Positions 1 through 62,600 of a stretch of DNA of 64,000 nt are shown here, piece after piece. The position numbers and the translations under genes were made by a program. The stretch is from assembly GCA_947179485.1 (NCBI GenBank), contig OX359247.1, positions 28,992,801 through 29,056,800 of the forward strand, given 5' to 3'. The notes under the pieces were generated by a model that saw only the letters and a program-made list of their open reading frames with translations, made no database searches and was not told the DNA's origin. This stretch comes from Allacma fusca. Lineage: Eukaryota > Arthropoda > Collembola > Symphypleona > Sminthuridae. Numbering within the stretch: the stretch's first letter is position 1; every line of letters starts with the position of its first letter.

Positions 1-380
1 AACATTGTGAGTACTTGTACAAATTTACTGTCAACTTGTATTACTTTTCCCGCATACCCAGTCATTTTTTCAAACTTCCCAACTTCACCAACATATCAAA
101 GCATATCCGAGAGATATGACAGAATCAATACTCCCCCCTCAACCACACAATATACAAATGTATAAACAAAACTTGAGATTTGTGCAGTAAAACCTTGAAT
201 ATTTTGCTTGACGGAAATTTCATCTCTTTAAAAAAAAAATCTGCATTGAAAACATTCTACAAGGAGTGTATTTTTGAAGCGGGTAAACAAATGTAGGACA
301 CGCATACGGACGTTTGTAAACTTCCCAAAGTACAAGAGGTACATGCAAAAGATGAGTCAGAGATAAAAAAAAATCCGTAC
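1..380 (-). other. sequence downstream of the dpr-like Ig2 exon, probably intron
   Basis: The Ig2 exon ends at a GTACGG donor, so this stretch should be intron leading to a C-terminal exon outside the window. I see no further Ig, transmembrane or GPI-signal exon on the minus strand. The sequence is AT-rich with A and T runs. Confidence 0.6.
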
Positions 381-588
381 CATCAGAGACGTATACTTGA
401 ACTGTGGCTGGTTGAGTGTTGGAGGCCTTGCAAGTGTAGTTGCCCGCATGTTGGTGTCCTGCGGATGGAACTGTTAATCTGGAGTGCGTTCGGATCCCTG
501 GTTCAGTGTGAACACTCACCCCGGACCCATAATTAACCATTTGGTTATTATGGTACCAATACAGGTACTGCGGAGACTGACGCGGACT
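381..588 (-). CDS. dpr-like gene, exon encoding most of Ig2
   Basis: This exon supplies the second immunoglobulin domain of a dpr-like protein. It has 69 codons plus one base (208 bases). The frame opens SPRQSPQYLYWYHNN, where the YLYWYH block carries the core strand-C tryptophan at exon residue 11. It continues through VHTEPGIRTHSRLTV to AGNYTCKASN, with the strand-F cysteine at residue 53, and ends ATVQVYVSDG. The first Ig2 cysteine lies in the upstream exon at 21329-21463. The acceptor is a long T tract followed by CAG at 589-590, and the donor GTACGG begins at 380, leaving in phase 1. NYT at residues 50-52 is a possible N-glycosylation site. The Asp usual in the DxGxYxC motif is His here (HAGNYTC). 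The match to dpr Ig2 domains is clear by eye, but the paralogue is not assignable. Confidence 0.93.
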
Positions 589-37400: not shown

Positions 37401-38498
37401 AAGTGGCTTGAATTAATTGTACGGATGAATAGGAATTGCAGTCCCTGTTTTATTACTGGCAAACACACGCTTGGATTTATGGACATATGTAGACACGTAC
37501 ATTCATATGTGCGCATCTCAGAATATATTATCTACAGTGCCCTGTTGCTATAAAACCCTTCGTTAATACAATTTCCTGCACATCTGCTATCCAATACTAA
37601 GTCTATATATAGAGGCCCAATCACCCCAATTTTAATTTATCTGTTATGAGGGGTGCTCTTCCAACGGCAGGGTACTGTAGTGATTATTGGCAGTCCTTAC
37701 GTATAATTACATACATATATCCCTATGTACAATTTTATATGCATAAATGTATGGAATCGGTAAAATCGATGCCAACAAAACCCGAGGATTTATGATTAGC
37801 TGTCATTTTGTTCGGAGAAAGCAACTTTCCCCGGAACCATTTCTTGTTGCGATTCATTGGGAGAATCTTGCACGTGTGAGCTAAATTATATATAATGCTT
37901 TGGAATGCACACCTATCGAACAGGGACATAGGAGCTTATCACGACACAGTGCCAACACTGAACGCTCATTTGTTCTCCTCGCACGCTCTCTCATAGTTCA
38001 GTGAATAGCGCCCATTAATTTTTCCCTGTATGTTCCTGTATTTTTATTTGATTTCGTGTAATTCTTAAAATAGTTTGCTTCCCCGCTTTCCTCGTCGGCC
38101 TTGACAACGTGCAACTTGTAACTATTGTAATTATTATTAGTAGGGTCGAAGTTGCGTGTATGTATACACACGGATGTTTTTTCTGTATGGGGTCTCATAG
38201 GCCGGTATTTAATGTTGTATAAGATTACTTTCTTTTTTTTCTCGGGGTAGAGCCGCTGAACACAAAAGATTTTATGGTATCGTCAGCAATTTTCCTCCAG
38301 GATTTTTTCTTCTCACAATTTTTTTTATTACAGTGGGTATTTCCAATCATGACGGAATCCTCATTTATTAACATTAATAACGCTAACATGCCGGGGGGGG
38401 GGGAAAGTAAGGAATACAACCATGTCTTAAAGTAATTACTTAAATTATTAATTGTACAATATCTGGCTCGAAATTAGTAGGACGAGTAAGGTACGTAC

Positions 38499-38660
38499 CT
38501 GACATTCGTAGGTTCCGTTGTCCCGGGTCTGGACGAATTTGATGACGAGTGTCCATTCATCGGAGCCATCATTGTGAACAATTTGGAATCGATCGTCATT
38601 TGTATATGTTATTCGGCCTGAAGTTAAAATATGCCAGTCTCTTCTCCTTATCCAGGAAAC
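38499..38660 (-). CDS. dpr-like gene, exon encoding the second half of Ig1
   Basis: This exon has 54 codons with phase 0 at both ends. It begins VSWIRRRDWHILTSG, with the strand-C tryptophan at exon residue 3. It continues ITYTNDDRFQIVHNDGSDEWTLVIKF in three short blocks and ends TRDNGTYECQ, with the strand-F cysteine at residue 53 inside a standard DxGxYxC motif. The acceptor is TTTCTCCTTGTAG immediately above 38660, and the donor GTACGT starts at 38498. In Drosophila Dpr proteins this part of Ig1 forms the face that binds DIP partners. NGT at residues 48-50 is a possible glycosylation site. The first Ig1 cysteine must come from an upstream exon that I could not find between 38.7 and 64 kb. 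Confidence 0.94.
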
Positions 38661-55948: not shown

Positions 55949-57616
55949 ATACGCGAGAATACTTTTAATGCGGAATTGACTTGCCTGCAGTCTTCCATAA
56001 GGTTACTCATGCAATCAAATGAGGTGTATGAGTATCCACATCGTCGGCTAAGGAGCAAAAAGTAATTTCCGTTGAATTTTCTACCGACCAAAATAATAAT
56101 AATCCTCAATTTTTAGTCATCATAGTGAGCAAATGCGATCTTAAAATTTTTGTATTCTTTCTCACTCCTTAACAATTTCAACCTGCTTATTTTTGCTTCT
56201 TGAAAATAAATTCTAAACTGTTAACATTTGTGCTCCTAAATGTAATTTTAGTGTGAATTCTGCTTCAAAACAGTTTTCATATTTCCTTTTACAATTTCCA
56301 AGTGTATGTACAAGTCAGCTTTTTAATATTTTACGAAACATTACTCCTGCATTTAATTTCACGGTGTCTCAATGGCGAATGACTTTTATTTCTTGGAGTT
56401 GTTTGAAGTAAGTCCTGTTTCTGCAGGCGGGGACGTTCTTTGCAGGTGATTCATTTTGTAGTTTCTAAAACGGATGTGTGTTTTTGTATGCGGGAGATGA
56501 TCATTAAAAAAGAGTAAGCTGTAAAGATTTGTTTAACATTTAAGTTTCGCTTACGAACAGAGTGCAAGTGCAAGTATGTATGTGCTTGCACTGTACTGCA
56601 TGCGGTCTTTGAGAAGGGGAGGGCACTTAATGAGGACTGTAAGATGCACTGCGTCCATGTAGACACTTGTGGTTTATAGGAAATGAGGGATCTAACTGGG
56701 ATTATAGCTAAGTGGATTGAGGAATGAGGGGAGGTTACGAAGCTGAAGACAGGAGCTGTATAGTGAGGAGGAATATATTCCTATAGGGAAGGAGTTGAAA
56801 GTTGAAATGGTAGGAAAGATGATTTTAAAATGTGAAAAAAAAGTAGATACAGGTTGAGGGAATATAGGGAGTAAGGGTTAAGAATAAACCTTGTTCAATG
56901 AATGGAACAAAGCAAAGATATTTTTAAGGAACGAGGTAATTAATTGAAGCTGTTCTCGGTCCATTTCTCTTTTCACACGATCTTGGCTCCCGACCAAAAT
57001 GTTACACCAACCATGCAATCCTCTATTCATTTCACTTCCACCCTCATACACTCACTCTCACACAAATTCTATACATACGGACAAATGCATTCTATCCTCT
57101 CTCTCTCTCTCAGCACCTCTTCTCCAGCTCCCCTTCTTCTTTTTACTCATTCTAAATTTGTTAATATATACACAACAGCTTATCGTACAGTAGTCAATAT
57201 GCACAGGAATGTATGTACATACAGCAAGAGTATCCCATATCGTCGGTGAAGAGTCAAAAGGGATATTTTCGGGAGATTATAAATCCGAAGAGATAAAGCG
57301 AAAGTATCGACAAAGTTAATATTCAGAGGGAGATGTTTCATAGATCTCAGGGTTTATACCACCCCCAAGCTATCCTTAATAAATTTTTCTACATTAATGA
57401 AGATAATTATTCCTCAGAATTTAGGGATATAGAAGAGAGGGATTTAGAACATAAGGATCAATTTCAACAATTGTTTTTTTATCCCTGTCCAAAATCAAAC
57501 AAAGGGAATTACGGAAAAATTATTATATTTTAAGTTCATTTTATTACCATTAAAATATCAACTAAAAATAAATGCAAAAGCAAAACATTCAAGTCTTCTC
57601 TCGTGACTTCATTGAT

Positions 57617-57622
57617 TTTATT
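57617..57622 (-). terminator. AATAAA polyadenylation signal
   Basis: On the minus strand CACAATAAAATCAATGAAG lies 88 bases after the stop codon of the cysteine-rich peptide gene. The T-rich stretch ATGTTTTGCTTTTGC follows about 40 bases on, as expected for a cleavage region. Confidence 0.65.
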
Positions 57623-57709
57623 GTGAGCCCCGAAATAATTCAAGGATACTCGTTTTTACAAGGAATATTGAAGAAAATATCATGAGAAACATCCGGAGAA
57701 TCCCCTCGT

Positions 57710-57823
57710 TTAGGCACATCGATAAAAGTTACCATATTGAGTATAAAAGAGGTCGCACATGTTACTACAACAGCCGTAACAACCAGGAGTGGTACTTATT
57801 CCAGACCCTAAGCAATTGAACAG
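57710..57823 (-). CDS. cysteine-rich peptide gene, exon 3 (mature peptide)
   Basis: It has 37 codons plus a TAA stop and starts LFNCLGSG after the acceptor TTTGAAATTTAG. It holds all six cysteines, including the GCYGCCSNMC block, and ends in an aromatic-rich tail (YTQYGNFYRCA). The antisense strand is also open over this stretch (57683-57820), but that frame has no support. Confidence 0.68.
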   Translation of the reverse strand: MFNCLGSGISTTPGCYGCCSNMCDLFYTQYGNFYRCA

Positions 57824-58154
57824 CTAAATTTCAAAAGTAAAATAAATAATTTTAGGGAAACTATAATAATTTCAATGAGTCACTTAAAAACAGATGTAAG
57901 TTTGTATTATTTGTAGATCCCAACCTGACGCTTTTGTTTGTCAACATGCGAATGGTCTGGAAGCGAAACATCGATGACAGAATCCGTACCAACGGAACTC
58001 TCTGAAGCCTTAAATTCAGGAAATTATTTGTTTATATCTATTTTTCCAATAATTTATTATTCACACTTTCAGTACAAAGAAAATTTAATTCAGAGATTGT
58101 ACTTACGACGACGACCGCGACTACTAAGAGCACGAAAAGACCAACGCACTTCAT
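57710..58154 (-). CDS. secreted six-cysteine peptide precursor (three exons, unknown family)
   Basis: The coding parts are 58154-58107, 58008-57925 and 57823-57710. Every junction is in phase 0, and together they give 81 residues. Residues 1-17 form a signal peptide (MKCVGLFVLLVVAVVV plus A). Residues 18-39 are an acidic, Ser/Asp-rich spacer. KQKR at residues 40-43 is a furin-type site. The mature part would be 38 residues starting with Gln, which could cyclise to pyroglutamate. Its cysteines fall at mature positions 5, 16, 19, 20, 24 and 37, the C-C-CC-C-C order of inhibitor-cystine-knot peptides but with unusual loop lengths (10, 2, 0, 3, 12). A TATA box, initiator and AATAAA flank it. I do not recognise the family. 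A neuropeptide, an antimicrobial peptide or another knottin-like secreted peptide are all possible. It lies on the same strand as the dpr-like gene and may be nested in it. The weakest point is the second donor, GTTGGG. Confidence 0.68.
57824..57924 (-). other. intron 2 of the cysteine-rich peptide gene
   Basis: 101 bases, donor CAG|GTTGGG and acceptor TTTAG|CTG. If it is not spliced, translation continues VGIYK and stops at TAA, giving a 49-residue product without the cysteine domain. Confidence 0.6.
57925..58008 (-). CDS. cysteine-rich peptide gene, exon 2 (spacer and KQKR site)
   Basis: It has 28 codons, from ASESSVGTDS to HVDKQKRQ. It contains six acidic residues and a K-x-K-R cleavage site, followed by the Gln that would be the first mature residue. 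The acceptor is CCTGAATTTAAG. Confidence 0.66.
58009..58106 (-). other. intron 1 of the cysteine-rich peptide gene
   Basis: 98 bases with a consensus donor GTAAGT at 58106-58101 and acceptor AAG at the 58009 end. It separates the signal-peptide codons from the spacer. Confidence 0.66.
58107..58154 (-). CDS. cysteine-rich peptide gene, exon 1 (signal peptide)
   Basis: It has 16 codons from the ATG at 58154-58152: MKCVGLFVLLVVAVVV, a short basic start and an uninterrupted hydrophobic core. With the Ala that opens exon 2 it forms a good signal-peptidase site (VVA before Ser). It ends at a consensus GTAAGT donor. Confidence 0.7.
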
Positions 58155-58259
58155 ACTTTGGGTTTAGGAAGAGACTCGATTTAGGAAATAGTTTTTTTCC
58201 AGGGATTTAATGTCAACCAGAAATTATGTCAGTTTGAGAAAACTCACCTCAAATACCCA

Positions 58260-58267
58260 TTTATATA
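58260..58267 (-). promoter_or_regulatory. TATA box of the cysteine-rich peptide gene
   Basis: TATATAAA on the minus strand lies 106 bases upstream of the ATG. A TCA initiator-like site (A at 58235) lies 30 bases below the first T of TATAAA, the usual arthropod TATA-to-start spacing. Confidence 0.6.
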
Positions 58268-61673: not shown

Positions 61674-62600
61674 GAACTTGACTTTTGGATCTGAAGGTAA
61701 ACTTGTCATGGGAATATGAGCTTGAACTATATGTAATTACTTGTGGATCAGATTTGAACTTGACTTCTGGATGTGCACTTGAACTACTTGAACTAGACTT
61801 CTGAATCTGAATTTGAACGACACTTCTGGATCTGAACTTGAACTTGAATTCTGGATCTGAACTTGAACCAGACTTCTGCGTCTGAACTTGAACCCGACTT
61901 CTACATCTGAATTTGAATTACGTTTATGGATCTGTACTTGAACTAGAATTCTGGATCAGAACTTGAATTCTGGATCTGAACTTGAACTTGAATTCTGGAT
62001 CTGAACTTGAACTTGAATTCTGGATCTGAACTTGAACTTGAATTCTGGATCTGAACTTGAACTTGAATTCTGGATCTGAACTTGAATTCTGGATCTGAAC
62101 TTGAGCTTGACTTCTGGATCTGAACTTGAACTTGAATTCTGGATCTGAACTTGAGCTTGACTTCTGGATCTGAACTTGAACTTGAATTCTGGATCTGAAC
62201 TTGAACTTGAATTCTGGATCTGAACTTGAACTTGAATTCTGGATCTGAACTTGAACTTGAATTCTGGATCTGAACTTGAATTATGGATCTGAACTTGAAC
62301 TTGAATTCTGGATCTGAACTTGAACTTGACTTCTGGATCTGAACTTGAACTTGAATTCTGATTCTGAACTTGAGCTTGACTTCTGGATCTGAACTTGAAC
62401 TAGACTTCTGGATCTGAACTTGAACTTGACTTCTGGATCTGAACTTGAACTTGAATTCTGATTCTGAACTTGAACTTGAATTCTGATTCTGAACTTGAAC
62501 TGGACTTCTAGTTCTGTACTTGAACTACACTTCTGGATCTGAATTTGATTAAGACTTCCGGATCTGAATTTGATTAAGACTTCCGGATCTTAACTTGAAA
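61674..62600. repeat. minisatellite with 25-bp unit
   Basis: A tandem array of CTGGATCTGAACTTGAACTT plus GAATT, period 25 in the core (successive AATTC at 61991, 62016, 62041 and 62066). Shorter 19-base units occur where one GAACTT hexamer is lost. Units vary at the AATTC/GACTTC position and at the hexamer GAACTT/GAGCTT. The edges are degenerate, with CTAGACTTCTG and TTAAGACTTCCGG variants. The core of the minus strand has no stop codon in any frame, but there is no start codon or splice context. Confidence 0.95.

Follow-up and report, generated by a model that had tools for sequence, protein, structure and literature searches.

Does the minus strand of a 64,000-nucleotide stretch of the springtail genome of Allacma fusca (the window, by which we mean the whole stretch analysed) carry, near 58 kb, a genuine gene for a small secreted peptide of a kind not recognised before? 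Genes so small, divided into three short exons, easily escape ordinary gene prediction, and an earlier note, made from the letters alone, had proposed one here; it had also guessed an arthropod source, rightly so. Our analysis suggests that the gene is probably real and protein-coding. In the reading we favour, to which we give a probability of roughly 0.55, an apparently single-copy gene, nested in a dpr-like gene and driven by its own TATA promoter, would encode a secreted precursor, cleaved at KQKR to give a knottin-like peptide of 38 residues with three disulfides that would act extracellularly.

Structure of the Gene and its Precursor

The TATA box, initiator, three exons, KQKR, stop codon and AATAAA that the earlier note had described were all found where it had placed them (Table 1). 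On contig OX359247.1 the window covers 28,992,801 to 29,056,800, and the coding part of the gene 29,050,510 to 29,050,954. The initiator-like A (58235) lies 32 bases downstream of the TATA box, counted from its first T, and 81 bases ahead of the ATG (58154). Both introns are in phase 0, as had been claimed, and the joined frame encodes 81 amino acids: MKCVGLFVLLVVAVVV from exon 1, ASESSVGTDSVIDVSLPDHSHVDKQKRQ from exon 2 and LFNCLGSGISTTPGCYGCCSNMCDLFYTQYGNFYRCA from exon 3. Base composition follows the same division, with a G+C content of 0.52, 0.48 and 0.40 in the three exons versus 0.21 and 0.23 in the introns.

Table 1. Features of the peptide gene and of the surrounding dpr-like gene (window positions unless noted).
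Feature	Position	Strand	Remarks
TATA box TATATAAA	58260..58267	-	first T at 58267
Initiator-like TCAAAC	58232..58237	-	A at 58235; putative start site
Predicted 5' untranslated region, 81 nt	58155..58235	-	from promoter elements
Exon 1, signal peptide MKCVGLFVLLVVAVVV, 48 nt	58107..58154	-	joined-frame translation; ATG at 58154
Intron 1, phase 0, 98 nt	58009..58106	-	GTAAGT...AAG; G+C 0.21
Exon 2, acidic spacer ending KQKR, then Gln, 84 nt	57925..58008	-	
Intron 2, phase 0, 101 nt	57824..57924	-	GTTGGG...TTTAG; T-rich tract before acceptor; G+C 0.23
Exon 3, LFNCLGSGISTTPGCYGCCSNMCDLFYTQYGNFYRCA and stop TAA	57710..57823	-	six cysteines
AATAAA polyadenylation signal	57617..57622	-	88 bases past stop
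dpr-like exon, first part of first immunoglobulin (Ig) domain	L004:3750-3649 (past window end, about 77.7 kb on window scale)	same strand	tblastn, Dpr-like queries
dpr-like exon, second part of first Ig domain	38490..38660	-	tblastn, Dpr-like queries
dpr-like exon, second Ig domain	379..564	-	tblastn, Dpr-like queries

By inspection, the precursor follows the general plan of peptide hormones: a signal peptide, a spacer, a basic cleavage site and a short mature peptide. We expect the signal peptide to be cut off just past the first A of exon 2. The spacer without KQKR has a computed charge of about -5 and an isoelectric point of 4.2, and the mature peptide a computed net charge of about -0.3. 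Of the seven cysteines, the signal peptide has one and the mature part the other six, which follow the order C-C-CC-C-C with a spacing of 10-2-0-3-12 (C-X10-C-X2-CC-X3-C-X12-C). The predicted fold of the peptide has a C-terminal hairpin holding Cys 5 and Cys 6, and the model has higher confidence than that of a control, which was one single stretch.

Chance, Coding Potential and Splicing

Could such a layout be an accident, a set of splice-like sites that happen to lie in frame where there is no gene? A strict pattern (nine of ten hydrophobic residues in exon 1, GTRAG as the first donor, phase 0, a basic pair in the spacer and at least five cysteines in the last exon) has one match in the 64-kb window, the peptide gene itself, and none in 100 windows simulated by an order-3 Markov model. 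Looser versions requiring a strong hydrophobic core gave one locus and 0/60 simulated windows for a phase-0 intron 1 with at least six cysteines, and two loci and 2/60 for any phase with at least five; with a weaker core and any phase there were two loci at five or more cysteines (8/60 simulated windows) and one locus at six or more (5/60). As these filters were drawn up after the gene had been seen, the counts are supportive and yield no P value. An accident would find some comfort in the loose rules, under which a model of this kind turns up in 2 to 8 of 60 simulated windows, and in a loose three-exon, five-cysteine model with many splice variants on the minus strand at 9274-8894; this second model fits chance, such models occurring in 8 of 60 simulated windows, and is probably spurious.

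Two properties that form no part of the filter agree with a real gene and support it, the contrast in G+C and the codon score. Trained on a small set (four kinase stretches and two dpr exons), the codon score of the joined frame is 8.3, versus a mean of -8.5 (standard deviation 7.9) for stop-free random triples; a score as high was reached by 70 of 5000 such triples and by 34 of 1500 triples matched for G+C. Scored on synonymous use only, 96 of 5000 random and 25 of 1500 matched triples did as well, and all shifted frames of the gene score negative. The TATA box, the spacing to the initiator and the AATAAA fit a gene too, as does a fold model surer than that of the single control stretch. Taken with the strict scan and the phase-0 six-cysteine scan, these observations make an accident unlikely. 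The claim of a six-cysteine secreted precursor, made in the earlier note, is supported by the layout, the pattern scans and the codon score.

Some observations weigh against the gene as we have drawn it. Exon 3 alone has a codon score of -5.1, which would also suit an accident; the model of the control stretch likewise has a C-terminal hairpin; the donor of intron 2, GTTGGG, is weak; and a second AG lies 18 nucleotides inside exon 3, the use of which would delete the first cysteine. The last two bear on the question of whether a real gene might be spliced in another form. The second AG is in frame and would give a five-cysteine peptide; retention of intron 2, where read-through stays open for five codons past the Gln, would give a product ending in KQKR-QVGIYK. 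The first acceptor, however, has the T-rich tract ahead of it and yields a mature peptide with an even number of cysteines, and we regard another splice form as improbable.

Searches for Relatives

The assembly of A. fusca, qeAllFusc8.1, is reported to span 392.8 Mb, with chromosomes of 81.9, 75.61, 66.08, 58.81, 55.59 and 48.07 Mb and a mitochondrion of 14.94 kb; an annotation with available RNA-Seq was announced there for later (PMC10427803). We searched it as 392,743,791 bases in 91 contigs, with E up to 10. Exon 3 found itself once, and the precursor found its own three exons and no second copy, with only the best candidates scored, so that distant paralogs could escape; the gene is apparently single-copy in A. 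fusca.

No Pfam model reached its cut-off (matches listed with E up to 10, the filters dropping most above about 0.1), and the 38-residue mature part matched no family there. The best match, Conotoxin (PF02950), came with the 81-residue precursor only and was rejected at 13.2 bits and E 0.18, the cut-off being 25.1. A venom reading was dropped as well, because venom is not known from springtails. The antifungal family of Alo, Antifungal_pept (PF11410), is absent among the Pfam matches, and a genome-wide search with its profile omits the locus and gives, at another place, a single weak match that misses the cut-off (E 0.64), although springtail Alo itself was not tried against PF11410. Nothing significant was found in NCBIfam (best E 0.22, unrelated), in PHROGs (best E 0.063, families without known role) or in a viral fold library (16 matches, best E 5.4). 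Among PDB sequences the precursor matched one entry, cystathionine gamma-lyase (E 1.6), and the mature peptide only bidentatide (E 1.2), both insignificant. Contigs of IMG/VR and GTDB gave 24 and 95 pattern matches, none of them confirmed, and fragments of the peptide sequence led to no relevant paper in the open-access literature, judged by title and the start of the abstract. With no significant relative in Pfam, NCBIfam, PDB sequences or its own genome, the peptide appears, as the earlier note had proposed, to stand outside the recognised families, among those searched.

Comparison with Known Cysteine-rich Peptides

The cysteine order C-C-CC-C-C is that of the inhibitor cystine knot (ICK), or knottin. 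Of the loops, the last three lie within the published consensus CX3-7CX3-8CX0-7CX1-4CX4-13C and the first two, of 10 and 2 residues, outside it (PMC4942781). Three knottins, omega-atracotoxin-Hv1 (1axh), PAFP-S (1dkc; antifungal, and the second structural match) and bidentatide (8hjc), share with the peptide the cysteine order, CC-X3-C, the predicted C-terminal hairpin with Cys 5 and Cys 6, and a similar length; the peptide differs in having Cys 2 near the CC pair, and all sequence and fold matches to them are insignificant. In the alignment with bidentatide, a plant peptide with three disulfides, Cys 1, the CC pair and Cys 5 coincide and Cys 2 is shifted by four positions (E 1.2). Nature offers in this spacing a test of how much deformation the knottin scaffold tolerates. 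The gene is well formed, and its product is probably an unclassified, knottin-like springtail peptide.

Might it instead serve in defence, as a knottin specific to the lineage that acts in Allacma against fungi or bacteria, in the role attributed to Alo in other springtails? Alo of springtails and beetles also has six cysteines and CC-X3-C, in a mature peptide of 34 residues versus 38. From Cys 1 to the CC pair, springtail Alo has 14-16 residues, nearly equal to the 13 found here, and Alo is reported missing in Sminthurus viridis, like Allacma a symphypleonan (PMC10051947), which makes a replacement defence knottin a live alternative; the structural match to PAFP-S points the same way. The springtail Alo spacing of 6, 7-9, 0, 3, 10 (C-X6-C-X7-9-CC-X3-C-X10-C) is, however, unlike 10-2-0-3-12 in loops 1, 2 and 5, with Cys 2 of the peptide much nearer the CC pair, and the precursors of two complete Alo genes have 61-62 residues versus 81 (PMC10051947). 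The Pfam and genome-wide results for the antifungal family, the net charge and the lack of a second copy also speak against defence, which we hold to be possible, if doubtful.

Other families are more remote, by their published descriptions. Springtail diapausins likewise have six cysteines with Cys 3 and Cys 4 adjacent, in a different spacing (3, 9-14, 0, 9-11, 6-9), and the peptide departs also from springtail defensin, C-X5-6-C-X3-C-X9-10-C-X7-C-X1-C (PMC10051947). Amickin-1 and naickin, tachystatin-type ICK peptides of the bee and Nasonia compared here by description only, are alike in being small, in their six-cysteine ICK pattern and in having a phase-0 intron close to the region of the cysteines. 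Theirs, a conserved one, lies ahead of Cys 2, and a proline-rich, positive tail is present (PMC2853521); the gene studied here has its intron ahead of Cys 1 and encodes no tail. OCLP1 of the bee, also compared by description only, is another small peptide of six-cysteine ICK pattern (PMC5705965).

Possible Function

On the reading we prefer, transcription would start from the gene's own TATA promoter, the three exons would be spliced and the product would enter the secretory pathway through its signal peptide. A furin-type or prohormone convertase would cut after KQKR and free the 38-residue peptide, whose N-terminal Gln would be cyclised, probably into a pyroglutamate cap; oxidative folding around three disulfides would give a knottin-like scaffold with an oddly placed second cysteine, and the stable, nearly uncharged peptide would act outside the cell. 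With the pyroglutamate and three disulfides, its calculated neutral monoisotopic mass is about 4176.64 Da.

The 700 bases upstream of the gene hold six TAATTA and five GATA-type sites, counts reached in 5 and 26, respectively, of 414 overlapping windows matched for G+C, and both together in none. CACCTG occurs once (0.08 expected), three kappaB patterns gave a single match to one of them (0.36 expected), and no match was found upstream to the patterns of the cyclic AMP response element (CRE) and the ecdysone response element (EcRE). We take these motif counts as weak hints.

A messenger or a channel modulator seems the most likely role, though we propose it tentatively, and an antimicrobial role appears less likely. 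The tilt is slight and comes from the lack of net positive charge, of a second copy and of clear immune-type promoter sites such as kappaB; antimicrobial precursors, too, may carry acidic propeptides (PMC3308954, PMC2853521). That the gene is the founder of a small family is plausible. A bolder proposal, doubtful as it stands, would make the peptide a messenger of the springtail lineage and the founder of a family, with a six-cysteine framework new to the searches made, in which Cys 2 of the knottin has moved beside the CC pair, and perhaps with a disulfide topology of its own.

If expressed, the gene would add one more unclassified secreted peptide to those of springtails, which are non-insect hexapods. 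The antimicrobial survey of springtails, which covers five species with Allacma absent, proceeds by homology to known families and would miss such a peptide (PMC10051947). So would a survey of neuropeptides in non-pterygote hexapods, which, in its available part, looks for named peptides and names no such precursor (PMC4770511).

Genomic Surroundings

The order and common strand of the three dpr-like exons suggest a single gene with two Ig domains; for the exon at 564-379, the region 220-744 was recognised by Pfam Ig models as well. Its introns are about 38 and 39 kb long, and from the positions of the exons the peptide gene is nested, in the same orientation, in the 39-kb intron.

A tandem repeat with a 25-base unit, in about 33 copies, lies at 61786-62599 of the window; its minus strand is free of stops over as many as 193 codons, which would translate into a repetitive, SSSSDPEFKFKFRSRIQVQVQIQ-like sequence. 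The chromosome contig of the window (C10) begins with another tandem array, with a unit of about 17 bases, GGGACAGTGAGGGATTT (L032, about 80-475); no TTAGG run was seen in the 600 bases examined there, nor an obvious telomere repeat in the last 600 bases of the contig (L035:2400-3000). On another contig, six kinase-like matches of equal score (G000:C8:49982416-49993648), each with two stops and spaced at 2,141 bases, suggest a tandem array.
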